NCBI GenBank assembly: GCA_023441125.1
Contig: JAEZQV010000399.1
Location: 1-12,766 of the forward strand
Source: Bacillota bacterium
GTDB taxonomy: Bacteria > Bacillota_C > Negativicutes > Sporomusales > Sporomusaceae
Length of the DNA: 12,766 bases
Direction of reading: 5' to 3'
Position 1 is the first letter of the stretch. The number at the start of each line of letters is the position of its first letter. Positions 1 through 12,766 of the stretch are shown here, piece after piece. The notes under the pieces are model-generated. The model was not told where the DNA came from and made no database searches. It was given only the letters and a program-made list of their open reading frames with translations. The position numbers and the translations under genes are program-made.

Positions 1-3000
1 TTGGGGATTTCGCCGTTTATATCAACCGTTTATGCGGATACTGTTGTCGGAGACACGGTAGTTGTCAATCAAAACGAAACCAAAGTAACTACCGGCTTGG
101 CGACCGGCAAGATTGATGCAAACCGCAAAGGCCAGACTAACGGTCTATATTTATATAATTCAGTCATTATTCTATCCAACGGACGCTGGCAGCCAGACGA
201 TGCTACGGATAATAAAAATGCAGATAACGAGCGCATACAGGTCAATGAACTTAATGTGGGAGTGGGCGGCATTGTAGATCTGAGCTATCATAACACCCAT
301 AATCTCAGTATGGGGACGGCTGATACCGTAGCCAAGCACGAAGAACGGCAACTGTATGTTACCACCGCCACTCTGGCCAACGGTACGGTTTTCCGACTAA
401 GCCCGAATTCAGCTACCACTACGACAACGGCCACATTGAATAATAATGTTGAAAAAGTCGTGATTACGAACGCTGTTGGGAACGGTACCATCTATATTCA
501 ACTGGGATATGATGAAACGATGGGTGATGCCGGTAAAAATAGATTTAATCTCCTTAACGCTACTCAGACCTCTGCAGGCGGGCAGTATTTAGTAAGCACA
601 CAAAATAAGTATGCAATTTTGACGATTACCAACGGTTATGCAAATTTCACTGTGGAAGGTCAAACCTCGCTGGCCGACGCGCCGCTATATGTCTATGAAA
701 TCACGCCGTACATTTACTGGGATGCTGCGACCGGCATCGCCTATTTTAACGGCTATGAATTCGTCGGCAACACCAATCGGGTGTCAGAATCCGTTAAGGC
801 GACCAGTGATGTGCACCGTTCGCTGCGCAATCTGTGGCGGATCGAGGAAAACAATCTGTTTAATCATTTGGATACCTTGCATCAGGAGCAAGCGACTGTA
901 AGCAAGGCTACATCAACAGATGACGACAGAAAACGCGAAGGAGCCTGGGTCAATACCTTCCGTGGCTCATTAACCAGCGATAGCGGCTATGATGGGCGCA
1001 GCGTCAAGCAAGATTATGACGGGATACAGGTCGGCTACGATAAGCGGCGGGCCGGTGACTTTTATAACGGCAAGCTATATACCGGCATCATGTTTAATAA
1101 AATCACCGCCGATTCCGCTTTCTTGTCGGGCACAAGCGATTTGAGCAGCGAGGGCCTTGGCCTGTACAGTACCTGGGTTGGCAACAAAGGACACTACCTG
1201 GATCTAATTGTCCGCGGCTCCAGGCTCACCAATGACTATAGTTTCTATGACAGCGAAGGCAACGTTAAAAGCGGCTATAACACCTGGGCGATGGGACTGA
1301 GCAGCCGCTACGGCTATCGGCAGCAGTTAAAGGATGGCTGGTTCTGGGAGCCGCAGGTGGGATTATCCTACGGCAATATTCCCAGCACTTCCTATACACT
1401 GAGTAATTATTTGAATATTCAACAGGAAGCGATCAGCACTCTCACCGGCCGCTTGGGCGTTACCCTGGGCAAAACGCTGGGTGAAGACGGCAGCAAAGGC
1501 AATGTCTACGCGAAAGCTACCGCTTTCCATACCTTCGGCGAGGATGCCAGCGTACGCGCTTCCTATGCAGTAGACAGCTTGCAGGTGGCGACAGCGGATG
1601 GCAGCGATACCTGGTATCAATTCAATCTGGGGACTAATCTGAAGCTGTCGCCGGACAGCGATATGTGGCTGGAACTGGGCAAGACAACCGGCGGCAAGGT
1701 TCGGACCGACTGGCAGGTTAGCGGCGGTCTGGCCTGGAAATGGGGCGGGCTGCCCAGTGCCAAAGGAAAAGCTGTTCCGATGAGCAGTGTCCATGCATGG
1801 CAACAGCAATCACTGCCTGGCGCTGATATAAAAGCAGCGGCTAAACAACAACCTGTAGTTAATGCGGCAACGGCCGGCGGACAACAGCCAGCTACTGCTA
1901 AGACCGGTACAAGCGATATAGTCAGCATGACAGTAACAGATGATCAGTCGACAGAGACAGCAGTCGGTCCGCAGACCAGTGACCAAACGGTTACAGCCCC
2001 TGAACCGGCAACCCCCGCAATAAAGACAACGGACAGTCGCATCAAAACGCAGCCGGTAGGGGAGACAACGGCAACTGGCAATGAACCGGCGACGGTAACT
2101 AGTAGTACCTCGCAGCCGGGCGAATATGTCCTGCCGGCCCTCACCGTTGAAGCGCCGCGTCCCAACTGGGAACAGAACCTGTCCCCTGGTACAGTATCGG
2201 TTGTTTACCCTGAGAAGTTTAAAGGCGAGGCGAAAAAGCTGCCGGAAATGCTGGAAACCGTACCTGGTATTCATATTAACCGGGTCAACGGCATCGGTCA
2301 GTATACTACCGCCACGATTCGTGGCAGCTCGTCAGCCCAGGTTGATGTTTATGTGGACGGCGTCCTGATGAACCGGGGCGGCGATGCGGCTGTTGACCTG
2401 TCGCTCATTCCGGTTGAAAATGTGGCCCGCATTGAAGTCTACCGTGGCTATATCCCGGCCCGCTTTGCCAGCGCGGCTATCGGCGGCGTCATCAACATCG
2501 TCACCAAGAAACCGGAAAAGGAAAGCTTTACGCTGTCTCAGGGCGTGCGTTCCTTCGGCGGTTATCAGGGCAGCCTGGAATACACCGCGCCACTGGGGAG
2601 CGGCAGTTTGCTGGTTGGCGTTAACCGTGACCAGAGTGATGGCGATTTTAGTTATACGAAAATAGACCCCAACATAAGAAGTGGGATTACTGACCCGGCC
2701 GACCGGCACCGCAAGGACAACAGCTATCAAAATACCGACGGAGTAATCAAATGGCAGGATGCCAATTGGTTGGTCAAGGCGGCCTGGACTAAAACCGACC
2801 GGTATCTCCCAGCTTCTACCTCGGAAAACTATATTGCCACTACGGACGGCAGCGCTGCAGCAGACCTGATTTCCACCAGACGTCACCAAGTTGTCGATCA
2901 GCAAAGCCTGTTAATGGGTCGACGGCAGACAGTGGGCAATCTGGAATGGGGTTGGCAGGTTGATTGGCTGCAATATGACAAGGACTATACCTCCAATCTG

Positions 3001-4089
3001 ACGCTCGGCACCTGGCCGGGTGCTTTGTGGAGCAGTTATGGCAGCAAGCACATCGGCACAGCCATTGATGGCACTTGGAAGCTGGGTGACAGCCACCTCC
3101 TGGAGTTCCGCGCCGATTACGCCCATGAAACCATGGATGTCAGCGCCTCTGACCCCGGTGGCAACACAGGCGAGATTTATTTCATCCCGCACTATCAGTT
3201 CAACAAGTACCATTTCCACCTGCAGGACAATATATCGCTCAACAGTGCCAAAAATCTGACCTTATCGCCTATTATTCGAGCCGAGCGCATCGAAATGTCG
3301 ACCAATACCCCGGATGAGAATAAGTGGAAATATTCCTACGGTGTGGGTCTGAAAAAGGAAATCAATGAACACTGGACCCTAAAAAGCAGTTATGGCACCT
3401 ATAACCGCTTCCCCAATTTCTACGAAATCTTTGGCGACGGAGCCTGGCTGCGGCCGGTGCCGTTAACTATACAGCAACAAGGCGTAGGCAAACCAACCTG
3501 GGAAGAAAGCACCCAGTTTGACCTGGGAGCCACTTGGCGAGGCCGGGCGCTCAACGCTAATGCGAATTTCGGCCTGACTTATTTCCACCGTGATATTGAC
3601 AATATGATGTTGCTCTTTAACAACAAGCTGGCAGCCTGGTACGGCAACTATGGCAGCGCCGTGGCCAAGGGGCTGGAGTTTGACGGCAGTCTGAAGTGGC
3701 AGTGCTGGGATCTCGATCTGGCGGCTACCTGGACTGACACGGAGCGGCGGAAAACGCAGTATAAACAAGTAGTCGGCGGTCCCATCCCCGATATCCCCGA
3801 GTGGGAGGGTAATATCCGTCTGACCTACCGGGTCCCTGGCGACAAACTCTCGTTGTTTGCCGAAGACCATTACACCGGTACCGTGAATAAGACGTATGAG
3901 GTGCTGAATATTACCAATCTTGGCTTCCGCTATAACCTGAATGACAACTGGAAACTCACCGGCGGCGTCAATGATCTCTTCAATCGGGGACCGGAACAGA
4001 CCTGGTACTATGATGGCTATGGTAAACAAACTATGCTCTATCCGCAGCAGGGCCGCACCTATTATCTGACCACGCAATATCGTTTCTAA
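1..4089 (+). CDS. Autotransporter beta-barrel fused to TonB-dependent receptor (5' partial)
   Basis: This frame is open from the first base, and its first residues (ending TVYA then DT) look like the end of a signal peptide, so the true start lies upstream and the TTG at base 1 is probably internal. Residues about 15-250 are beta-rich and look like the C-terminal part of a pertactin-type passenger. A helical segment at about 262-295 leads into an autotransporter barrel at about 314-581, whose last strand ends W-K-W. Residues 582-705 are a Thr/Ala/Pro/Gln-rich linker. A TonB-box-like stretch (VLPALTVEA, 710-718) precedes a plug at about 730-836, with PGIHINRVNG, RGSS, VYVDGV, IEVYRG and GGVINIVTKK. 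The 22-strand-type receptor barrel follows and ends in Tyr-Arg-Phe, as outer-membrane barrels do. Known receptors of this family import siderophores, heme, cobalamin or other large substrates using TonB energy; the substrate here cannot be told. No second signal peptide lies in the linker, so this is a real fusion rather than two adjacent genes. Confidence 0.93.
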   Translation: MGISPFISTVYADTVVGDTVVVNQNETKVTTGLATGKIDANRKGQTNGLYLYNSVIILSNGRWQPDDATDNKNADNERIQVNELNVGVGGIVDLSYHNTHNLSMGTADTVAKHEERQLYVTTATLANGTVFRLSPNSATTTTTATLNNNVEKVVITNAVGNGTIYIQLGYDETMGDAGKNRFNLLNATQTSAGGQYLVSTQNKYAILTITNGYANFTVEGQTSLADAPLYVYEITPYIYWDAATGIAYFNGYEFVGNTNRVSESVKATSDVHRSLRNLWRIEENNLFNHLDTLHQEQATVSKATSTDDDRKREGAWVNTFRGSLTSDSGYDGRSVKQDYDGIQVGYDKRRAGDFYNGKLYTGIMFNKITADSAFLSGTSDLSSEGLGLYSTWVGNKGHYLDLIVRGSRLTNDYSFYDSEGNVKSGYNTWAMGLSSRYGYRQQLKDGWFWEPQVGLSYGNIPSTSYTLSNYLNIQQEAISTLTGRLGVTLGKTLGEDGSKGNVYAKATAFHTFGEDASVRASYAVDSLQVATADGSDTWYQFNLGTNLKLSPDSDMWLELGKTTGGKVRTDWQVSGGLAWKWGGLPSAKGKAVPMSSVHAWQQQSLPGADIKAAAKQQPVVNAATAGGQQPATAKTGTSDIVSMTVTDDQSTETAVGPQTSDQTVTAPEPATPAIKTTDSRIKTQPVGETTATGNEPATVTSSTSQPGEYVLPALTVEAPRPNWEQNLSPGTVSVVYPEKFKGEAKKLPEMLETVPGIHINRVNGIGQYTTATIRGSSSAQVDVYVDGVLMNRGGDAAVDLSLIPVENVARIEVYRGYIPARFASAAIGGVINIVTKKPEKESFTLSQGVRSFGGYQGSLEYTAPLGSGSLLVGVNRDQSDGDFSYTKIDPNIRSGITDPADRHRKDNSYQNTDGVIKWQDANWLVKAAWTKTDRYLPASTSENYIATTDGSAAADLISTRRHQVVDQQSLLMGRRQTVGNLEWGWQVDWLQYDKDYTSNLTLGTWPGALWSSYGSKHIGTAIDGTWKLGDSHLLEFRADYAHETMDVSASDPGGNTGEIYFIPHYQFNKYHFHLQDNISLNSAKNLTLSPIIRAERIEMSTNTPDENKWKYSYGVGLKKEINEHWTLKSSYGTYNRFPNFYEIFGDGAWLRPVPLTIQQQGVGKPTWEESTQFDLGATWRGRALNANANFGLTYFHRDIDNMMLLFNNKLAAWYGNYGSAVAKGLEFDGSLKWQCWDLDLAATWTDTERRKTQYKQVVGGPIPDIPEWEGNIRLTYRVPGDKLSLFAEDHYTGTVNKTYEVLNITNLGFRYNLNDNWKLTGGVNDLFNRGPEQTWYYDGYGKQTMLYPQQGRTYYLTTQYRF

Positions 4090-4140
4090 ACAAAACCGTA
4101 TTGATCACCTCGCCTTACCTATATGGCGGTGAAATTGATA

Positions 4141-4187
4141 GGATACTTTATTGCAACATTAATATAGTATCCGGCTAGGCAGTATCC
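4141..4187. repeat. GGATACT/AGTATCC stem-loop with extra repeat copy
   Basis: GGATACT at 4141-4147 is the exact inverse complement of AGTATCC at 4166-4172. After a T/T mismatch the stem continues with TATT (4149-4152) pairing with AATA (4161-4164), leaving an 8-base loop. A second direct copy of AGTATCC lies at 4181-4187, so the left arm has two possible partners. It could be an operator dyad or a switching RNA leader. There is no T-run after it. Confidence 0.5.
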
Positions 4188-4228
4188 ATGTTCCAGGCGA
4201 AATAAGATCAGTAGAGGAGGTGAAAAGA

Positions 4229-4261
4229 ATGCTGCTTGCCATTGTATTAAGCAAAAGTTAG
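4229..4261 (+). CDS. Ten-codon leader-peptide-like mini-ORF
   Basis: The frame reads MLLAIVLSKS followed by TAG. A very strong Shine-Dalgarno sequence, GAGGAGGTGA at about 4214-4222, lies 6 bases before the ATG, better than most gene starts in this window. The product is too short for a folded protein but has the size of a leader peptide. No run of one regulatory codon is present, so classical amino-acid attenuation is not indicated. It could also be the leftover start of a decayed gene. If the candidate promoter at 4265-4292 is used, this ORF would not be on the same transcript as the propeller gene. Confidence 0.3.
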   Translation: MLLAIVLSKS

Positions 4262-4264
4262 TCT

Positions 4265-4292
4265 TTGGTAGGCTTGTAAAAACGATTATATT
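4265..4292 (+). promoter_or_regulatory. Candidate sigma-A promoter for propeller-like gene
   Basis: TTGGTA (4265-4270) and TATATT (4287-4292) are separated by 16 bases, resembling -35 and -10 boxes. Transcription would start near 4299 and give a short leader that carries the ribosome binding site GGAGGTG (4308-4314). The -35 match is only partial and the area is A/T-rich, so chance is possible. Confidence 0.3.
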
Positions 4293-4323
4293 TTATTTAA
4301 CAAAAACGGAGGTGTAGTTTGTA

Positions 4324-5727
4324 ATGGCAGATAGTAATTCTGTGTTAGGTTTTTCAGTAGTCAATTATGGAGATTCGAGTGCTGTACCGCCTATACTGCC
4401 GGAAGGTGCAGTGGGGACAATTACCGATTCAAACGGAGCCACTCCGGGACTTGACCTTGATAAAGTCTATGGTTTAAACAGTGACGTATCTGTCAATTGG
4501 TTTCCTGCCAGTGATGGCTCCACCGGTACCAGCCGCTTGCTGATCGCTCAGTATAATTATGGCAGCGACGCTACCGTTCAAGTGGAAAACACCAATACTC
4601 CAAGTTGGTTATTAATCGCAGGTCAAAGAACTTGGTCTGGCGTGCACAATGTGTACGGCGCAGCGACCAATGCTGCACAGGACCATCTGTATGTTATAGA
4701 TTACGATAATGCTGCATTGGCTAAGATTACGGCCAATGGCACAGCCTCGCCGGTAACCAATGGTTATCCTTTGGATTCCGTGCTGAATTTCCCCGCATTC
4801 GTCAATACCGTGGAAGGTTCTACCGTTTTTCCCCCCAATAGCACATCGCCTGCTTGGCAAAACAACGGTGTTGCTATAACGGTTGTCGGCAGCAATTTGT
4901 ACGCACTGTTTACGGCTGTGGACAATCCTTGGGCAACCACTCCTAATTATGCTGACAGCGTGGTCGTTCGCCTGACCATCGGCACCGGTGGTGCGCTGAC
5001 TTACAGCGCCGGCGACTATAAAACTGTGGGCAAGAATGCCTTCACCCTGGAATACTACGGCGGCAAATTGGTTGTGGCTAGTGTCGGCGGCAAGCAGGTG
5101 GACGGCGCATATAACAGCAACTCGGCTATTCATGTTATTACTACCGGCACCGGCGGTAGCCTGAAAACGGCTGACGGAGCCAGCGTAGCTCAGGTATTGT
5201 CGGCTTCCGACGTAGATGACGAGTTCAGAAGCGTAGCTATCAGCAATGGCGGCGATGTTTACCTGTTGACCGGGCATTACAGCTCAGGCTATGCAGATTT
5301 CTCCGGACTGGTATATCAAACCACAATGACGAATCTTATAAGCGGTAACCCTGGTAGTGATATCATTACAATCAGCGAAGAAGAAGGCTTCCTCTGGACG
5401 CTCCGCTACTACAACAGCACCAGTGGAACGACCGACCGGCTGTGGTTCGCCCAGGGGAATGCTGTGGGTCTATATGATACCTATACATCCGGTATTCCCC
5501 AGGTATTCCTTATTCCTGCAGACGATCTGAGCAGTGATACTGCGCCAATCCGCGTTCATACTCCCCGACATTTAAACGGGATTACCCTGTTTGGTGCCGG
5601 TCAGCCGACACTGGTATCTCGCGGCTATCAATCGCCGGCGTTTGCTTCGCAGTCGCCGGAGGCATTGGTGGAACGGAAGAAGATTCTGGAGGCAGCAGCC
5701 AAGGCCAAAGCTGCCAAAAAACCATAA
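4324..5727 (+). CDS. Beta-propeller-like protein of unknown function
   Basis: The start is fixed by GGAGGTG nine bases upstream and by an in-frame stop at 4315. The 467-residue product has no signal peptide, lipobox or membrane segment. It is rich in Gly, Ser, Thr and Asn and has repeated short beta units of the kind LYVIDYD, LYALFTAV, LVVASVGG, VYLLTGHY and LWFAQGN, spaced 50-80 residues apart. That is what blades of a beta-propeller look like, perhaps five or six. The last 25 residues form a Lys/Ala-rich helix that is unlike the rest. The composition resembles that of extracellular proteins, which sits oddly with the missing signal peptide. It lies downstream of the receptor fusion, is probably transcribed on its own, and is followed by a strong hairpin. 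A role as a surface or substrate-binding partner of the receptor is only a guess; I do not recognise the family. Confidence 0.82.
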   Translation: MADSNSVLGFSVVNYGDSSAVPPILPEGAVGTITDSNGATPGLDLDKVYGLNSDVSVNWFPASDGSTGTSRLLIAQYNYGSDATVQVENTNTPSWLLIAGQRTWSGVHNVYGAATNAAQDHLYVIDYDNAALAKITANGTASPVTNGYPLDSVLNFPAFVNTVEGSTVFPPNSTSPAWQNNGVAITVVGSNLYALFTAVDNPWATTPNYADSVVVRLTIGTGGALTYSAGDYKTVGKNAFTLEYYGGKLVVASVGGKQVDGAYNSNSAIHVITTGTGGSLKTADGASVAQVLSASDVDDEFRSVAISNGGDVYLLTGHYSSGYADFSGLVYQTTMTNLISGNPGSDIITISEEEGFLWTLRYYNSTSGTTDRLWFAQGNAVGLYDTYTSGIPQVFLIPADDLSSDTAPIRVHTPRHLNGITLFGAGQPTLVSRGYQSPAFASQSPEALVERKKILEAAAKAKAAKKP

Positions 5728-5747
5728 GCTTTCTCAGTAACCAGGTG

Positions 5748-5786
5748 AATTTGGACTGGCGGGTAATAAGCCTGCCAGTCCAAATT
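5748..5786 (+). terminator. Strong stem-loop, likely Rho-independent terminator
   Basis: A 16-base-pair stem (5748-5763 with 5771-5786, one G-T wobble) closes a 7-base loop, TAATAAG. The stem flanks are AATT, so the downstream arm runs directly into TTCT, giving a short interrupted T-tract. It begins 20 bases after the stop of the propeller-like gene. A smaller hairpin (CTGGC 5791-5795, GCCAG 5804-5808) follows immediately and ends just before the next ribosome binding site. The symmetrical A/T flanks could let the element act in both directions. Confidence 0.75.
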
Positions 5787-5824
5787 TTCTCTGGCAGTTT
5801 TCAGCCAGTAGGGAGGTTGATTGT

Positions 5825-6532
5825 ATGGTGAGCGTACCGGAGCTTGCTTTTGCTCATTTGGAAACGGCGACATTGGCAGAGCGGCAGACTGACGATCAGA
5901 AAATCTCGTCCTGGGCAACCGCCGTTTTAACCGATCCGGAAAATAAACAGGTCAGGTATAATGAAAAAGAGTTAAATCGGTTTTTACAGGTCGCAGCCAG
6001 TTTCAGTCCGTTTTTGCCCGATGCTCCACGACCGCTGCACTTTCAGCAGTATTTTCCCTCCATTGTCTGGTACACGCTCGGCAATACCGTGTTGCTTGAC
6101 CGGCAGCAGAGACGGCCCATCGCCTTTGGCACCGGCGATAGCAATATCTTTTTAAGCCTATTGTTTGACGGTTTCTTTATCGACAGCCGGCAGCCGGATT
6201 ACTTCCGGCCCATGAGCAAGCTTCACGACACCGGGCCGTTTATCGAGCGGTTCCGGGGACAAGGCCAAGCGCAAAGAAAAAAACAGAATTATTATGCACT
6301 GGTTAACTATTTGCATGAGAAAAAAATAATCAAAATGACACCAAAGACCCAGTTCATCAAATTGCACCCCTGGATGGGAATGACGATTCTCCGTGAGTTG
6401 TGCCAGTTTATCCGGCAATGCAGCCAAATGACCGGTATGGAAAAAGAATGGCCGCCATTGCTCAAATGTATGATCGTCTATGGGCTTTTGACAAAGCAGG
6501 CAAAGCCGGCACCACAACAGGGAATTCAATAA
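5825..6532 (+). CDS. Conserved-looking cytoplasmic protein, unknown function
   Basis: GGGAGG lies 8 bases before the ATG, a good start. The 235-residue product has no signal peptide and no membrane segment. The N-terminal 50 residues are polar and helical. A middle part (about 75-140) has aromatic-rich beta-like segments such as FPSIVWYTLG and LFDGFFIDSR. A basic stretch near 140-155 precedes a helical C-terminal third containing HPWMGMTILREL and four to five scattered aromatic residues. I do not recognise a family and see no catalytic motif. It is the first gene of a co-directional group with the CHAT protease and the DUF2325 protein; only 45 bases separate it from the next start, with no terminator between, so co-transcription is likely. 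A regulator, adaptor or target of the CHAT protease would fit but is not shown by the sequence. Confidence 0.8.
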   Translation: MVSVPELAFAHLETATLAERQTDDQKISSWATAVLTDPENKQVRYNEKELNRFLQVAASFSPFLPDAPRPLHFQQYFPSIVWYTLGNTVLLDRQQRRPIAFGTGDSNIFLSLLFDGFFIDSRQPDYFRPMSKLHDTGPFIERFRGQGQAQRKKQNYYALVNYLHEKKIIKMTPKTQFIKLHPWMGMTILRELCQFIRQCSQMTGMEKEWPPLLKCMIVYGLLTKQAKPAPQQGIQ

Positions 6533-6577
6533 CCTGTCATACTTGATTGTAGAATAGAGAAAGTGGGGGGACGGGAT

Positions 6578-7543
6578 ATGACATCCAGCGATGAGCTTCA
6601 ACAAAGTCTTCTGCAAAAAAAGACTCAACTGGCCCAGCTAAAAAGTGACAAGGCGCAGGCGCTGCAGCAAATAGCCGAGCATAACAAGGTGTTTACGCAG
6701 GCGCTTCCGGCCAAACCGCTTACGTTGAAAGCAACTCCGGCCGATGTAGCAGAGAATAAGGTGGATACGGCTAAAAAGCATATTAAGCATAACACGCAAC
6801 GCGTAATTGATCTGGTAGCGACAATTGCCAAGCTGGAACAGGAGGTTGCCGGGCTGGAGCAGCAAATTTATGCGGCTGATCAGCCTGAGCAAAAGAAAGG
6901 CCGGCAGCAACCGAAACGGACAAAGCCAGCCGCCAAGAAAGCGGCTGAAAAGGTAACGGTTTTGTTCCTGGCAGCCAATGCTCTGAAGAATGCCCCGCTG
7001 CAGCTTGACGCTGAGGTGAGGGATATTCAGGACAATATCCGCAAATCCGAATACCGGGACGCCATCAATTTCGTTACCCGTTGGGCGACACAGCCGCTGG
7101 ACATTCTGCAGGCCATCAATGAAGTGAAACCGCAAATTGTGCATTTTAGCGGCCACGGCGCGGAAAGTGACGGGCTGGTGTTGCAGGGCGAGGATGGTAA
7201 CCCGGCTATTGTTCCCTTAGCGGCTATCGTACAGGTTATGCTGAGCGCTTCCGATATGATCCGCCTGGTATTTTTCAATGTCTGTTTTTCGGACGATGAG
7301 GCTAAAACCGTTGTCAACTATGTAGAAGCGGCCATTGGTATGCAGCGGGCCATCAGCGATGAGGCGGCCAGGGTGTTTGCCGCTCAGTTCTATTCCGCCC
7401 TCGGCTTCGGCAAATCCTTGAAAAATGCGTTTGAACAGGCCAAAGCCGCGCTCATGCTGACAGGCATAGCGGAGGAAAATACGCCGTTCCTGTATGTCAA
7501 AGAAGGGCTTGACCCGGCGCAACTCGTTTTGGTTCAGGCCTGA
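6578..7543 (+). CDS. Coiled-coil protein with C-terminal CHAT caspase-like protease
   Basis: I chose ATG 6578 because a G-rich Shine-Dalgarno (6565-6570) lies 7 bases before it; a GTG at 6563 inside that region is less likely. Residues about 3-105 are heptad-like coiled coil, 106-125 are a Lys/Arg/Ala-rich linker, and 126-318 form a CHAT domain. The start (VTVLFLAAN), the LDAEVRDIQ helix, the HFSGHG motif, FFNVCFSD and the C-terminal IGMQRAISDEAARVFAAQFY region all match the stand-alone bacterial CHAT family. The expected catalytic pair is present: His193 of SGHG and Cys236 of NVCFS. CHAT proteins are clan CD cysteine peptidases related to caspases and separase, and several act in bacterial defence or regulated self-proteolysis. 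The coiled coil probably mediates assembly or contact with the coiled-coil DUF2325 protein encoded 28 bases downstream. There is no signal peptide, so it is cytoplasmic. The protease assignment is firm; its target is unknown. Confidence 0.92.
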   Translation: MTSSDELQQSLLQKKTQLAQLKSDKAQALQQIAEHNKVFTQALPAKPLTLKATPADVAENKVDTAKKHIKHNTQRVIDLVATIAKLEQEVAGLEQQIYAADQPEQKKGRQQPKRTKPAAKKAAEKVTVLFLAANALKNAPLQLDAEVRDIQDNIRKSEYRDAINFVTRWATQPLDILQAINEVKPQIVHFSGHGAESDGLVLQGEDGNPAIVPLAAIVQVMLSASDMIRLVFFNVCFSDDEAKTVVNYVEAAIGMQRAISDEAARVFAAQFYSALGFGKSLKNAFEQAKAALMLTGIAEENTPFLYVKEGLDPAQLVLVQA

Positions 7544-7571
7544 GAAAACGAAGCTAAAGAGAGCAGCAGCC

Positions 7572-9188
7572 ATGAAACAAGAAGATGGGCAAATCGTAAT
7601 TGATCTGATCCCCTTTGTCGCCAAAAGCATCGCCCAGAATCCGGCTGCCCGGCGCGAACTGGACTGTATTTACGCCAACAGCCGGATACCTATTGCAAGA
7701 GCGTTTTCGCCGAAAACGGCAGGTTATAACTGTTATTACCGGGAATGTGATGTTCTGACGGAAATCTACTGCCAAAAAGCCACTGATCTTGTTATGACGG
7801 CCCTGGATGGAAAAGAGTCCGGCAAGCCGGCGCTTACAGCCCTGAAGCTATTGCTGAAAAAATGCTGGCGACAGCTTTATTGTTACGTAGAGGCCAGCGG
7901 TCCGGCCGTCCCGTTAGCAGCGCTCTGGAAAAAAATGATGAAAAAAGGCAGAAAACCAACCGAGTGCGAATTGCGTAATCTGTCGAAGCTGCCGCCGGGG
8001 GTTTCTCCCAAGGATATCACTACCAGTAATGCTTTAGACGGAGATTTTCCGATGTTTTGGTTTCTGGTTAATTTGTGTGGTAAAACGATTACGGAACAAG
8101 ACGAGAATTTTTGTAAGTATGTCATGGTTTACCGGGACGAACAGGAACGGATGCACCGAAAATTGAACAAAAAGCCACCGGTCCTTTCGAAATTGCAAAA
8201 AGAACTGTCAACTGCGCTTTGGCAATATATCGAGCAACAACTGAAAGGAATTCCGGCCAGTTTAGACGAGTATTTCTGGACGCAGGAATATCAGCAAAAG
8301 TCTCCCGTATTACCCTTTAAGCAGGAAATCTTCGGCGACTTGCCAATTAGCGCCATCAAACATGTAATTATCAGCCGTCAGGAACTGAGAACGGCTATTG
8401 ACTGGCTGGCAGTTTCGCTGCCGGAGGAGGCGACTGTGACCGCCGAACTGAAGCAAGCCGCGCTGGAATATTTCAGGCAAGTGCTGTTCACCCGCGCCTG
8501 CGCTTACCAATATGAAAGATTGCGGAATTTTGCCTTAGAACAAAGCCGGTTGGCTAGCAAGGCCTTATCCCGGCCGCTTCAGGTAACCAGGCTGAAAGAA
8601 GAACTGGTGCAGGCGGGACAAAAAAAACGGGAGTTAGAAATGTTGCTGGCACAAGCACAGAAAGCCCCATCCTTAGAAGCGTTGCTGGCAGAAAAACAAA
8701 AAAAACTGAATGCACTGCAGCTTAAGCTGGAAAAAAGTGCAAGCGCGGCCCTGAGTGAGATAACCCGGCTGCAGCAAAAGCTGGATGCGGAACGGGAAGC
8801 CAATCAGGTGCTAATCAGGCTGTTGATGGCGAAAAAGCAGCAAAGTGAATACGCTATTGACCTTAGCCCGGACATATTGGAAAAAATAATGCTGCTTAGC
8901 GTCGTCATCCTCGGCGGGCGAATGGACTGGCAGCAAAGGTTAAAAGCGAAATATCCGAACTTTAGCCTGATTTCATCCGAAGATGTAAAATTTGATCTGT
9001 CGGTACTGGCGGCAGCCGATATCATTGTGATCAACTGGAAATACCTTGGCCATAGCTTGTTTTACCGGACGATAAACTATGCCGGCAAATATAATAAGCC
9101 GATTGTGTATCTTGACAACAGCAATGAGAAACATCTGTTGCAAGTGTTGTACCGGAAATGCATTTTACCCAAAGAAGCAAGGGGTTAG
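7572..9188 (+). CDS. Large coiled-coil protein with C-terminal DUF2325 domain
   Basis: ATG 7572 is preferred: it has a weak AAGAGAG site 8 bases upstream and leaves a 28-base gap after the CHAT gene. An in-frame ATG at 7494 would overlap the CHAT gene by 50 bases and has its GGAGG 18 bases away, which is too far. The 538-residue product is cytoplasmic. Residues 1-320 are mainly helical, with no family I recognise and several Cys and Trp residues. Residues about 322-421 are a long coiled coil. Residues about 442-532 match DUF2325: the ILGGRMDWQQ strand-turn, SSEDVKFDLSVL, ADIIVINWKYLGHSLFY and KPIVYLDN are the family's conserved blocks. The function of DUF2325 is not established; the alternating strands and glycine turn suggest a Rossmann-like fold, which is inference. 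Sitting directly behind the CHAT gene with poor translation signals of its own, it may be translationally coupled and act as partner or substrate. Confidence 0.88.
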   Translation: MKQEDGQIVIDLIPFVAKSIAQNPAARRELDCIYANSRIPIARAFSPKTAGYNCYYRECDVLTEIYCQKATDLVMTALDGKESGKPALTALKLLLKKCWRQLYCYVEASGPAVPLAALWKKMMKKGRKPTECELRNLSKLPPGVSPKDITTSNALDGDFPMFWFLVNLCGKTITEQDENFCKYVMVYRDEQERMHRKLNKKPPVLSKLQKELSTALWQYIEQQLKGIPASLDEYFWTQEYQQKSPVLPFKQEIFGDLPISAIKHVIISRQELRTAIDWLAVSLPEEATVTAELKQAALEYFRQVLFTRACAYQYERLRNFALEQSRLASKALSRPLQVTRLKEELVQAGQKKRELEMLLAQAQKAPSLEALLAEKQKKLNALQLKLEKSASAALSEITRLQQKLDAEREANQVLIRLLMAKKQQSEYAIDLSPDILEKIMLLSVVILGGRMDWQQRLKAKYPNFSLISSEDVKFDLSVLAAADIIVINWKYLGHSLFYRTINYAGKYNKPIVYLDNSNEKHLLQVLYRKCILPKEARG

Positions 9189-9210
9189 GGAAAAAACGAG
9201 GGGATGGTTC

Positions 9211-9232
9211 TCCTGCTTCCGATGAAGGAGGG
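9211..9232 (+). promoter_or_regulatory. Hairpin hiding the ribosome binding site of the C1A peptidase gene
   Basis: CTTC (9216-9219) pairs with GAAG (9224-9227) around the loop CGAT. After one G/G mismatch, TCCT (9211-9214) pairs with AGGG (9229-9232). The Shine-Dalgarno GGAGGG (9227-9232), 8 bases before the ATG at 9241, is therefore inside the stem. Such a structure could limit translation unless it is opened. Any CCTCC-like sequence near a Shine-Dalgarno can do this by chance. Confidence 0.4.
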
Positions 9233-9240
9233 ATTAGCAC

Positions 9241-10140
9241 ATGAAACTGCAGGTAGTCTTACCGGACAAGCGCACGGTAGGCACTGGCTGGCGGCCGCCG
9301 TTGCCGGACTTGCGCGATTATACCGAATGCCATCCCAACCTGCAGGCCGCCATTGAACGGCTGGGAATTGACGATACTGCGCCCCTGCCGGCTAAGGCCG
9401 ATCTGCGCCAGTGGTGCAGCGCACCGGTGCCGGCGCAGGGCCAGCTGGGGGCCTGTACCGCCCACGCGGCGGCGGCGATTATTGAATATTTTCAGAACCG
9501 GGCTTTTGGCAGGCATTTCACCGCTTCACGGCTGTTTATTTATAAGAATGCCCGCAATCTGGAAGGGATAATCGGGGACCAGGGAGCGTATATCCGGGAT
9601 ACCATGGGGGCCCTGGCCCTGTGTGGCGTGCCGCCGGAGAAATACTGGCCGTATACCGATACGGTTCCTGATTTTGACAAAGAGCCGACTTCCTTTGTCT
9701 ATGCGGTTGCCGACAACTATGAGGCGCTGCAGTATTTCTGCCACGATCCCGCCGGCACCAGTACGGCTCCGGCTGATGTCCTCTGCAGCGTGAAAAAGTA
9801 TCTGGCGGCCGGTGTGCCGGCCATGTTCGGCTTTTATGGCTTTGCTTCGTTTACCGCCACCGATGTCCCCGGCGGCATTCCCGGCCCCGGTCCCGATGAA
9901 CCGGCCAGTTGGGGCCACGCGGTGGCGGCCTTTGGCTATGACGATGCGATTACAATCAAGAATACCCAGTACAACCGGGAAACCACCGGCGCCCTCCTCA
10001 TCCGCAACTCGTGGGGCAGTGCCTGGGGCGACGCCGGCTACGGCTGGCTGCCGTATGAATATGTGCTGAATAAGTTGGCGACGGATTTCTGGTCGCTTTT
10101 AAACATGGAGTGGATTGGCACCGACCAATTCGGCATGTAA
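9241..10140 (+). CDS. Papain-family (C1A) cysteine peptidase, cytoplasmic
   Basis: The 299-residue product begins 8 bases after GGAGGG. Clan CA, family C1 hallmarks are all present in order: oxyanion Gln66 and nucleophile Cys72 in QGQLGACTAHA (spacing of six as in papain), His226 in SWGHAVAAFGYDD, and Asn256 in IRNSWGSAWGDAGYGW. An intact catalytic apparatus predicts an active endopeptidase. Upstream of the catalytic domain are only about 60 residues containing PDLRDYT, common in bacterial leaderless members; there is no classical inhibitory prodomain and no signal peptide. It should therefore stay in the cytoplasm or be exported by a non-Sec route. It is followed 54 bases later by a YbjN-like gene and then a small exported protein, probably one operon. 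Base composition is clearly more G+C-rich than in the CHAT and DUF2325 genes just before it. The peptidase assignment is very secure; substrate and control are unknown. Confidence 0.96.
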   Translation: MKLQVVLPDKRTVGTGWRPPLPDLRDYTECHPNLQAAIERLGIDDTAPLPAKADLRQWCSAPVPAQGQLGACTAHAAAAIIEYFQNRAFGRHFTASRLFIYKNARNLEGIIGDQGAYIRDTMGALALCGVPPEKYWPYTDTVPDFDKEPTSFVYAVADNYEALQYFCHDPAGTSTAPADVLCSVKKYLAAGVPAMFGFYGFASFTATDVPGGIPGPGPDEPASWGHAVAAFGYDDAITIKNTQYNRETTGALLIRNSWGSAWGDAGYGWLPYEYVLNKLATDFWSLLNMEWIGTDQFGM

Positions 10141-10194
10141 CCAGGCCGGTAATGGCCGACAGGAAAATTTAGACAGGATAGGGGAAAGACCCAT

Positions 10195-10650
10195 ATGCAA
10201 AACAGCAATATAAAAGCGGACAAGTTTCAGGAGTTTTTAACCGCCAATCAGATTACCTGCTTTGGTGTACAGGAAATGAACGACGCAGTGCACACCGTTA
10301 TCTTTCGCACCAATCTGGAGGTTGGCGGCCAGCAACTGCCGGTCATGTTTGTTACCGACGACACTTTGCATGCGCCGCTGCAGGTGCGGGTCGTAGCGGC
10401 GGCCGTTCAGGGTCCGAACACCTTACATGTTCTTAACTATGTCAATGAACTGAACCGGACCTATAAGAGTTTTAAATATTTTATCAGTGAAGACAATGCC
10501 CTGATTCTGGATGTTTGCCTGACGGCTGTGCCGGAGCAGTTTGAGCCGCAGCTGGTCAGCCTGGCCCTGGACGTCATCCTGCGGAACCTGGCGGAGGAGT
10601 ACCCGGTGATCATGCGCAAAATCTGGGCAGAGGAAGCCGTACAGAACTAG
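10195..10650 (+). CDS. YbjN-like domain protein
   Basis: GGGGAAAG about 7-14 bases upstream supports the ATG. The 151-residue protein is soluble, with no signal peptide. An N-terminal helix (residues 7-18) is followed by four or five strands, a helix with LNYVNELNRTYKSFKY (about 81-96), two strands (FISEDNALILDVCLTAV), and a long C-terminal helix ending EEYPVIMRKIWAEE. This order, with the Asn-Glu-Leu-Asn helix and the terminal YPxI helix, is typical of YbjN-type proteins, whose fold resembles type III secretion chaperones. YbjN is described as a regulator in enterobacteria; here a chaperone or inhibitor role toward the neighbouring C1A peptidase is a reasonable inference from position only. 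Its stop is 13 bases before the next start, so the two are surely co-transcribed. Confidence 0.7.
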   Translation: MQNSNIKADKFQEFLTANQITCFGVQEMNDAVHTVIFRTNLEVGGQQLPVMFVTDDTLHAPLQVRVVAAAVQGPNTLHVLNYVNELNRTYKSFKYFISEDNALILDVCLTAVPEQFEPQLVSLALDVILRNLAEEYPVIMRKIWAEEAVQN

Positions 10651-10663
10651 GGGGGGGAAGCCT

Positions 10664-11035
10664 GTGAAAAAAGTTGCCTATATCGTTGCAGTCCTATTTT
10701 GTCTGAGCACAGCCGGTCTGGCTTTGGCGGCGGAGGAACAGCCCCAAGCGCCGGCTCCTGCCGACACAGCGGCCACCAACCTGGCTGTGGGGTATCCGGC
10801 CGCCAGGGACAAGCTGCCGCCCGTGCCGGTGCCGCCGGCTTCGCTGCAGGACGCCAAAGCCACCGCCGCCTATATTGCCGCCGTGGACGCGTACTTAAAA
10901 GCGGCGCAAAGCTATATTGACGCAGCCACCAACGACGCCAACCGGGTTATTGCGGAACGCAACGCCGCCATCCAGGGCGCCAATCAGGTGGTCGCTGCGT
11001 ATAACGCCTTTTTTAAAATCGAACCGAAGAAATAA
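10664..11035 (+). CDS. Small exported protein, unknown function
   Basis: It starts with GTG, supported by a run of eight G at 10651-10658 immediately after the previous stop. The N-terminus (KK, then a hydrophobic stretch about residues 4-20, then LALAAEE) is a classical Sec signal peptide with a likely signal peptidase I site after ALA or ALAA near residue 22; there is no lipobox Cys. The mature part is about 100 residues: a Pro/Ala-rich stretch to about residue 60, then Ala-rich helices with repeated Tyr (YIAAVDAYLKAAQSYIDAA) that could form a helical hairpin or coiled coil. It contains no Cys in the mature part. I know no family for it. It ends the co-directional gene group and is followed by a strong hairpin. 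A periplasmic or envelope role fits, which contrasts with its cytoplasmic neighbours. Confidence 0.8.
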   Translation: MKKVAYIVAVLFCLSTAGLALAAEEQPQAPAPADTAATNLAVGYPAARDKLPPVPVPPASLQDAKATAAYIAAVDAYLKAAQSYIDAATNDANRVIAERNAAIQGANQVVAAYNAFFKIEPKK

Positions 11036-11160: not shown

Positions 11161-12057
11161 CTATTTTTGTAAAAGATTCTTAACTTCATCCAGTGTATGG
11201 GCGGAAAAGATTTCGCCGGTAATCCGGTCCCAGGTGTCTGAACCGGCGACAGAATCCAGAAGCGGGATGAGTTCGACCGCCTGGGTGCCGAATTTTAATT
11301 CCAGATACAAAGCAACCGTTGCTTTGGTGCCTTCGGCTTTACCTTCGGCTTTGGCGCCATGGAGCAGCGTTTGTTCCTCCATGATAGCTTTCTCGCGCAG
11401 TTCGTAGCGCCGTCGTTCCTGGGCGCTTTTGGTGAATATTTGCTCGCAGGTGAGGGCTTTTCTGATCATTGGTTCACTCATGGCGATTGCCTCCATTTCT
11501 TCACCTTCAGCATTATTGAGGTATAAGAGCCATTTTTCCAGCCGGGTTTGAGGTGCAGCCGTGCGGCATAACATCTTTGGTAGTTCCAGAAAATGAATTT
11601 CCAGATCGTCGTTGAGGATTTGATGGGTGTCGTCTTCACGAATATGGAAGGTATGATGATAGCGCTCCTTGTCCGGCAAGCAGTTGAAATTGAGTACATT
11701 GATGGTGACAGTCTTCTTGAGCAGGGTGTGGTTTTGGCCGGATTGCAGCTGACCCTGATAGAGTTTGGCCCAGTAAAAGAGGGTGCGTTTTTCAATGTTG
11801 TACTGGTTAACGATTTGAATTTCGATGTTGATGAGCGTGCCGGCGGCGGTACGGCCCAGGATATCCAGGCGGGCGTATTTATCGCCGAGAAAGTCGGCGT
11901 CGATTTCCCGGTCGAGAAGTTCAAGGGTGGTGAGTTCCTGGCTGGGCTGGGAATTCAGTACGGCGTTTAAAAAATTCAGTAATATATCTTTGTTCTCTTC
12001 GGAACCAAATATACGTTTAAATACGTAGTCGTTCATCCGGTTGACGGAGCGCATCAT
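11161..12057 (-). CDS. Rpn family PD-(D/E)XK nuclease / putative transposase
   Basis: The 298-residue product starts at either of two adjacent ATG codons, 9 bases after GGAGGG. Residues 9-100 carry the family signature: NDYVFKRIFGSEENKDILLNFLNAVL, RLDILG with Asp65, INIEIQ with Glu79 and Gln81, NQYNIEKRTLFYWAKLY. Asp plus Glu-x-Gln is the usual active-site form of this branch of the PD-(D/E)XK nucleases. The Rpn proteins of E. coli are recombination-promoting DNA endonucleases, and the family is often annotated as putative transposase; real transposition is not established. The C-terminal part has an E-rich, low-complexity helix (KAEGKAEGTKA) typical of the family, followed by a short leucine-rich end. 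The length is normal and no frameshift is visible. It has its own promoter and terminator and runs against the neighbouring genes, suggesting a separately acquired unit. Positions are given in the text as protein numbering. Confidence 0.92.
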   Translation of the reverse strand: MMRSVNRMNDYVFKRIFGSEENKDILLNFLNAVLNSQPSQELTTLELLDREIDADFLGDKYARLDILGRTAAGTLINIEIQIVNQYNIEKRTLFYWAKLYQGQLQSGQNHTLLKKTVTINVLNFNCLPDKERYHHTFHIREDDTHQILNDDLEIHFLELPKMLCRTAAPQTRLEKWLLYLNNAEGEEMEAIAMSEPMIRKALTCEQIFTKSAQERRRYELREKAIMEEQTLLHGAKAEGKAEGTKATVALYLELKFGTQAVELIPLLDSVAGSDTWDRITGEIFSAHTLDEVKNLLQK

Positions 12058-12260: not shown

Positions 12261-12766
12261 ATGAGTCTTATTGACTGGTTTGCCAGTTTGTTTGTGAAAG
12301 AAGCCAAACATTATGTTTATGCGCCGGTGGCGTCCGACGTGGAGAAGCTTGTGTTCCAGGAGGGCCAGCATTATTTTCGCCTGCGCCTGGCGGAAATGTT
12401 CTTAAAAGACGACCGGAAGCTGTTCCGCAGGCTGGTGCCGGTGGTTTCCTCGGTCGTCAGCCTGCGCTTCGGCGACAATGCCGCCCAACAGCTGCCGAAT
12501 GTGGCCGGCCCGCTGGCGCTGAACCTGAATGAAAGCGCCCTCGGCAAAGGCGTGCAGCTCAATTATTCCCTGACGAACCTGGTGCCGTACCGCGGCGGCA
12601 CGGTGTCTGTCGACGCCGCCTTGCTGGCTTATGTCAGCAAAGACTATTTTCAGTCCTTCCTTTCGCTGGCCAACAGTGTTTCCGGCCTGCTGACCATCGG
12701 CCAGCTGTCGGCCGCTCTCAAGGTGGCCGACAGCGCGGTCGGCGCGCTGCAGGACCTCCTAGACAG
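12261..12766 (+). CDS. Unrecognised protein (3' partial)
   Basis: An ATG 6 bases after AAGGAGGGG opens a frame of 168 codons that runs to the end of the window without a stop. The N-terminus is not a signal peptide: an amphipathic helix with MSLIDWFASLF is followed by charged residues. A helix-rich part (about 28-65) includes HYFRLRLAEMFLKDD, then beta-like segments follow with VSLRFGD, GPLALNL, VQLNYSLTNLVPYRGG and VSVDAALLAY, then more amphipathic helix with SLANSVSGLLTIGQ. I do not recognise the family. The strong G+C codon bias matches the C1A peptidase group rather than the nuclease gene, and the direction is the same, so it may belong to that group, interrupted by the nuclease unit. That last point is inference. 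Confidence 0.8.
   Translation, partial: MSLIDWFASLFVKEAKHYVYAPVASDVEKLVFQEGQHYFRLRLAEMFLKDDRKLFRRLVPVVSSVVSLRFGDNAAQQLPNVAGPLALNLNESALGKGVQLNYSLTNLVPYRGGTVSVDAALLAYVSKDYFQSFLSLANSVSGLLTIGQLSAALKVADSAVGALQDLLD

Follow-up and report, generated by a model that had tools for sequence, protein, structure and literature searches.

In a window of 12,766 nucleotides (the whole stretch of DNA analysed here, contig JAEZQV010000399.1 of a Sporomusaceae bacterium, assembly GCA_023441125.1), a gene for a caspase-like CHAT protease is followed by one for a DUF2325-like protein and preceded by one for a protein that we call u235. We propose that these three genes form the central part of a locus for cobamide (vitamin B12) uptake in a Sporomusa-type bacterium and that the CHAT-DUF2325 pair is a proteolysis module for cofactor shortage; taken as a whole, we give this proposal an even chance. 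Of its parts, the B12 context of the cluster is strong, and CHAT and DUF2325 probably serve cofactor supply and not phage defence. A preliminary description, made from the window sequence alone, had framed the pair in terms of defence and programmed death; the setting is more unusual than its author could see.

The relatives of the cluster carry this reading (L and G numbers denote loci and genomes; genes of the relatives' loci are longest open reading frame, ORF, calls and not annotation). A cobalamin riboswitch (RF00174) was detected upstream, on the strand of the cluster, in 9/9 related loci bearing CHAT or DUF2325 genes, intact or as remnants: L001 from Sporomusa acidovorans (genome G001), L030 (via L051), L031, L032 (via L052), L033, L034, L035, L036 and L047. 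These riboswitches preceded the receptor gene described below, or the OmpH-like or propeller genes standing before it. In L001, a second cobalamin riboswitch lay between the DUF2325 and YbjN genes, and in L034 one was located about 0.7 kb before the DUF2325 fragment. Control CHAT loci from elsewhere, L048-L050 from genomes of the phylum and L123-L126 from named plasmids, gave no Rfam match in any of the seven, of which L049 has only 4,893 bases and L050 begins at the CHAT gene. Since five genomes carry 22-38 cobalamin riboswitch matches each, we estimated the chance of a same-strand aptamer within 10 kb upstream at a few per cent, a figure to be taken as a guide only; the loci are paralogous, so neither these nine nor the eleven discussed below are independent trials. 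The upstream parts of L107, a pseudo-CHAT locus, and of L110 lay outside the stretches read. It is well supported that, in the relatives, the genes of this cluster are part of loci with B12 riboswitches that also encode a receptor fusion and a BtuG-like propeller; the gene order of the window is the same. Because the relatives place the pair inside a vitamin-B12-regulated uptake locus, cofactor supply is favoured over defence; the earlier defence and programmed-death framing was not supported, the relatives having the pair in cobalamin-riboswitch-controlled outer-membrane loci, and a stand-alone defence island was ruled out as the best reading.

Tandem triples of cobalamin riboswitches stood before one operon at L031 600-1712, L033 2483-3794, L035 16168-17555 and L052 5925-7432, and also in L106. 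Dense clusters of them, which span about 90-135 kb and look like entire cobamide super-loci, were seen at G008:C4 484567-618923 and G005:C1 696009-785920. In L108, riboswitches were followed by a three-gene ABC transporter with TolQ/ExbB- and TolR/ExbD-like genes, then by papain-u382 and then by a propeller; the transporter was of the metal/corrinoid type, with BtuC as the best permease match and BtuF among the binding-protein matches, all under the equivalog cut-offs. In the available part of PMC12456013, cobalamin riboswitches are the most abundant riboswitches of S. sphaeroides KIAC, and the terms CHAT, TonB and autotransporter are absent.

The preliminary description had spoken of a three-gene cluster. 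The ORFs lie where it had placed them, in tandem at 5825-9188 and all on the plus strand, with gaps of 45 and 28 bp, but they are only part of a longer same-strand locus and occupy its middle: the plus-strand run extends from a TonB receptor ending at 4089 to 11035. The order is autotransporter barrel/BtuB-like TonB receptor fusion, BtuG-like propeller, u235, CHAT, DUF2325, papain, YbjN-like, small secreted protein and u382, with the following features (signal peptides were judged by eye here and throughout):

1-4089, plus strand: fusion of an autotransporter barrel with a BtuB-like TonB-dependent receptor, truncated at the 5' end by the window edge
4324-5727, plus strand: BtuG-like beta-propeller, signal peptide not evident
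5825-6532, plus strand: u235 (ORF), 235 aa, function unassigned
6578-7543, plus strand: CHAT caspase-like protease with an N-terminal coiled coil (PF12770; 8tl0 match)
7154-7156, plus strand: codon of catalytic His193, invariant in 19/19 alignment rows, residue checked
7283-7285, plus strand: codon of catalytic Cys236, invariant in 19/19 alignment rows, residue checked
7572-9188, plus strand: DUF2325-like protein (AlphaFold model; PF10087 in family members)
9241-10140, plus strand: papain-family (C1) cysteine protease (PF00112, 36.4 bits, cut-off 20.7)
10195-10650, plus strand: YbjN/TY-Chap-like protein (weak PF10722 and PF22551 matches, both under the cut-off)
10664-11035, plus strand: s123 (ORF), small protein with a signal-like N-terminus
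12261-12766, plus strand: u382, final conserved gene of the locus, truncated at the 3' end by the window edge

A consensus scan returned no terminator-like site on the plus strand between the genes from the receptor through 11035, and one promoter-like site on that strand at 4265-4292, within the receptor-propeller gap. The YbjN-like protein and u382 were 77% and 90% identical to their L001 copies, and the full-length L001 copy of u382 had no family match. Relatives of s123 were found in L001, L034, L035 and L106. A PD-(D/E)XK transposase/Rpn gene on the minus strand (11161-12057) splits s123 from u382, and these two genes adjoin in L001. For u235, relatives were present in L033 (62%), L053 and L105, a weak likeness to a 280-aa gene of L001 was seen (27.2), and no match was obtained in Pfam, PADLOC or NCBIfam; that it might be a further pseudo-CHAT was rejected at an hhalign probability of just 0.1-0.2.

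The receptor gene of the window matched PF03797 at 315-558, the PF07715 plug at 728-830 and the PF00593 barrel at 867-1326. Its receptor part matched the NCBIfam models for the MxcH siderophore receptor (E 2e-33) and TonB-B12 (TIGR01779, E 4.6e-33), both scores falling far short of the cut-off (114.6 bits against 599.7 for TIGR01779), and, among PDB entries, 9gbc (E 4.8e-17) and, over the plug, BtuB (E 8.8e-15). By these profile matches the receptor is at most BtuB-like. Both in the window (1-4089) and in L001 (1290-6470), a single chain combines the beta-barrel of an autotransporter with that of a TonB-dependent receptor, and a literature search found no description of such a receptor fusion in Negativicutes. 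The propeller resembles BtuG by sequence profile and by fold (VIA-align). Neither a signal peptide nor a lipobox was evident at its N-terminus, and 2/17 stand-alone propellers, the window's included among the 17, had a signal-like N-terminus. Giant ORFs in L103 (1538-9772, 2744 aa) and L053 (12582-18908, 2108 aa) combine a propeller towards the N-terminus with an autotransporter-like C-terminal end, so that export of the propeller family is probable in some loci.

The receptor fusion and the BtuG-like propeller suggest that Sporomusa has a counterpart to the BtuBG system of Bacteroides. As far as the available parts of PMC10404256 and PMC8941943 describe them, the Bacteroides BtuB-BtuG loci are alike in riboswitch control, in the BtuB-type TonB transporter with a BtuG propeller, in the presence of several paralogous loci per genome and in accessory genes of unknown function. 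Unlike them, the receptor here is fused to an autotransporter barrel, the window propeller shows neither a signal peptide nor a lipobox by eye, and the locus includes CHAT, DUF2325-like and papain genes, whereas the word 'protease' is absent from the main text of both papers.

This surface machinery allows another explanation, in which CHAT and papain would process or quality-check the giant receptor fusion, or the propeller that has no leader, ahead of export or in the course of it, and the OmpH- and YbjN-like proteins would be chaperones. Several loci have an OmpH-like gene ahead of the receptor, of the followers tested papain is the most widely conserved (matches in 19/41 genomes at E<=1e-10), and the giant ORFs of L103 and L053 fuse a propeller to an autotransporter domain. 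Yet no signal peptide was evident on CHAT or the DUF2325-like protein, and most of the receptor-propeller loci read are without both genes. We consider this explanation unlikely.

The CHAT gene encodes an intact protease, as the preliminary description had stated: the product scored 32.3 bits with PF12770, above the curated cut-off of 24, and His193 and Cys236 are invariant across 19/19 aligned CHAT relatives. The listed start is GTG 6563, and ATG 6578 comes after a G-rich stretch. The PADLOC 'chat' model matched at E 7.9e-10 and the CHAT protein of PDB entry 8tl0 at E 5.7e-11, and the CHAT profile also matched coiled-coil chains, weakly. A likeness to ubiquitin at residues 41-67 was taken as chance, as no stretch passed alone and the signal was lost with the profile. 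The ratio of nonsynonymous to synonymous substitution rates (dN/dS) was 0.10-0.19 for CHAT (6 pairs) and 0.15-0.30 for DUF2325 (10 pairs), with dS near saturation in both; as these values are well below 1, purifying selection appears to act on both genes. Short CHAT-like proteins occur in L030 and L031 (208 aa), L032, L106 and L107. Aligned to CHAT as a group, they reach an hhalign probability of 98.7, and both catalytic residues are lost in 5/5. Dead CHAT-like proteins lie at L032 10919-12692, L106 7859-8452 and L107 5196-5846; in L032 the dead copy stands directly before the live CHAT, which is followed by DUF2325.

With Craspase and SAVED-CHAT-type proteases, the window protein shares the CHAT fold, the His-Cys dyad and the arrangement of a protease with a partner. 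It differs from them in that no CRISPR effector, TPR or SAVED domain was found among the window proteins, in its DUF2325-like neighbour and in the B12 riboswitches of its relatives. Type III-E Craspase was rejected, as there was no TPR-CHAT with Cas7-11/gRAMP among the nine window proteins, and so were SAVED-CHAT and gasdermin-type systems, with no partner in the window and a SAVED_CHAT model match of only E 0.0035. In PADLOC, CHAT was the only one of the nine proteins matched at E<1e-3, and no complete anti-phage system was found. No CHAT match was obtained in 50,697 phage records, and no relatives of the DUF2325-like protein were found in viral contigs.

BtuB-type receptors are classic phage entry points, and because of this a guard module might be kept beside B12 receptors: CHAT-DUF2325 would then be an abortive-infection module in which a receptor-bound phage or damage triggers the protease. 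The match to the PADLOC 'chat' model is in line with this, as are the occurrence of the wider CHAT family on plasmids and in some defence-like surroundings and the fact that the loci are paralogous and often decaying. On the other side, no known defence partner is present in the window, 3/3 intact CHAT loci of the 60 genomes searched are B12 loci, and riboswitch control together with a DUF2325 paralogue behind another riboswitch fits nutrient economy better. We consider a guard of this kind improbable.

The tight adjacency of CHAT and DUF2325 noted in the preliminary description was confirmed in 3/3 loci with both genes intact, with gaps of 28, 29 and 27 bp in the window, L001 and L032, respectively. 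P0002 and P0014, both on 24639-base contigs, are probably a fourth case. The DUF2325-like protein had eight homologues at E<=1e-3 among 7997 scored, and the five with an organism name were Sporomusa; CHAT had 920 among 4724 candidates, and the named ones among the 120 listed were Firmicutes. The full-length, CHAT-linked DUF2325 type was present in 2 of the 100 genomes searched, a set made up of S. acidovorans and relatives (one copy in G001, three in G007), with broken or fragment copies in G001, G005, G007 and G008. Intact CHAT was found in 3/60 genomes (G001, G007 and G008), and CHAT of this family in 4/398 genomes of the phylum at E<=1e-20, G001 included. A scan of genome contigs gave 0 loci with a single-protein query and 2 with an alignment query. 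The preliminary description would have counted a neighbourhood restricted to close relatives as refuting its interpretation, and as far as seen the neighbourhood is restricted: the named DUF2325 relatives are all Sporomusa, and profile searches with the DUF2325 protein and with its paralogue found a DUF2325-like gene in 0/7 of the outside CHAT loci, with the positive controls L001 and L032 found in 2/2.

Such a distribution leads to the question of whether CHAT and DUF2325 are passengers, shuffled into B12 loci with other cassettes and without a B12-tied function. The restriction of named relatives to Sporomusa would be expected then, as would the remnants and broken copies in L002/L036, L030, L031, L033, L034 and L035 and the locus on plasmid pSPTER of S. 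termitida DSM 4440. Against it are the low dN/dS values, the kept order and spacing, and the separate riboswitch link of the DUF2325 paralogue in 11/11 loci; we regard passengers as very improbable.

The longest form of the DUF2325-like ORF starts at 7494, and ATG 7572 agrees with the relatives. Its AlphaFold model (mean predicted local distance difference test, pLDDT, 71; predicted template modelling score, pTM, 0.48) has a helical part at 13-282, long helices at 291-419, read as a coiled coil, and a C-terminal alpha/beta domain at 433-531. The coiled-coil DUF2325 protein of the preliminary description, 28 bases after CHAT, kept its spacing and, as read from the model, its coiled coil. Its domain name needed softening: PF10087 gave 21.9 bits for the window copy, under the curated cut-off of 33.6, and 'DUF2325-like' is therefore safer. 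PF10087 matched 9/9 members of the family alignment at E<=1e-3, and 3/8 relatives carried a precomputed PF10087 label. The Campylobacter protein Cj1384 has the small DUF2325 domain too; at 104 aa it is without the helical and coiled-coil parts, and the available part of PMC9426514 suggests a redox and/or metal role for this protein, encoded next to katA.

A DUF2325 paralogue of 534-558 aa was present in 11/100 genomes (loci L128-L138, e.g., L133 6976-8892). It aligned with the DUF2325-like protein over columns 7-529, nearly the whole length, with an hhalign probability of 99.5 (the paralogue alignment compared also included the shorter L009). In 11/11 loci, a molybdenum/tungsten cofactor (Moco/Tuco) riboswitch (RF01055) was found upstream on the paralogue strand, at 113-712 bp and with 44-55 bits against a cut-off of 36; a small ORF often sits between the two. 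As a control, 4/115 other genes of at least 100 aa in these loci had a Moco riboswitch within 800 bp upstream, and each was that small ORF. A ModA/WtpA-type binding protein was encoded close to the paralogue in 7/11 loci (L128, L129, L130, L132, L134, L135 and L137), and those of L128 and L130 pass an NCBIfam cut-off. The Moco/Tuco regulon of PMC2408646, as far as that source is available, is governed by the same riboswitch; 'DUF' is absent from its main text, and the link to the DUF2325 family was found here. Further DUF2325 genes, in L147, L149 and L153, were seen by eye close to metal genes (Fur-, ZupT- and FeoB-like).

In the mechanism that we envisage for cofactor shortage, CHAT and the DUF2325-like protein would be cytosolic and would be produced at low corrinoid, the usual behaviour of genes under B12 riboswitches. 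The DUF2325-like protein would be a cofactor-economy adaptor whose coiled coil docks that of CHAT; when the cofactor runs short, the two would cleave a client that handles or depends on cobamide, in a limited and regulated way. A catalytically dead CHAT paralogue may occupy the docking place in certain loci, damping or redirecting the protease.

Several observations weigh against this proposal. The receptor has matches to a siderophore-receptor family besides those to the B12 family; the sequence match of the propeller to BtuG spans about 55 residues, its fold score ties with lactonases, and no BtuG entry was among its first 50 Foldseek matches. No riboswitch was found within the window even at E<=1, the window starting inside the receptor gene. 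The pair is separable, L047 (G008) having CHAT without an intact DUF2325 gene and L030 and L031 keeping DUF2325 with N-terminal remnants of CHAT only, which indicates that neither gene strictly needs the other in cis; separated partners could act in trans, as intact CHAT is present elsewhere in G007 and a DUF2325 paralogue in G008 (L137). Elsewhere, members of the CHAT family occur in defence-like surroundings, as in L048, where OLD-nuclease and UvrD-type genes are neighbours. An Rfam match was seen in 0/20 further PF10087 or DUF2325-like loci (18 from a set of 30 plus L139 and L140) and in none of L037, L142 and L141, so a riboswitch is not a general companion of DUF2325 genes. Finally, the DUF2325 model had no match among solved folds in the PDB with E below 0.2 (best E 0.23).

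The preliminary description knew of no described system with this composition, and we found none in the literature searched. No paper placing a CHAT protease within a B12 locus turned up there, nor one joining Sporomusa and 'CHAT domain', and cobalamin riboswitch with caspase gave unrelated work only. More tentatively, with a probability that we place clearly short of even, the large coiled-coil DUF2325 proteins may form a metal-cofactor-shortage family, with one branch behind Moco/Tuco riboswitches and another behind B12 riboswitches that acquired a caspase-like protease; the pair would then be the first caspase-like protease in vitamin supply, with riboswitch-licensed proteolysis and pseudo-proteases as modulators. 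The link of the paralogue to the Moco/Tuco riboswitch in every one of its loci gives a regulatory anchor for a domain of unknown function. To our knowledge, bacterial caspase-like proteases have been studied mainly as defence or death effectors; if our reading is true, a CHAT protease in B12-regulated uptake loci would extend them to nutrient economy.

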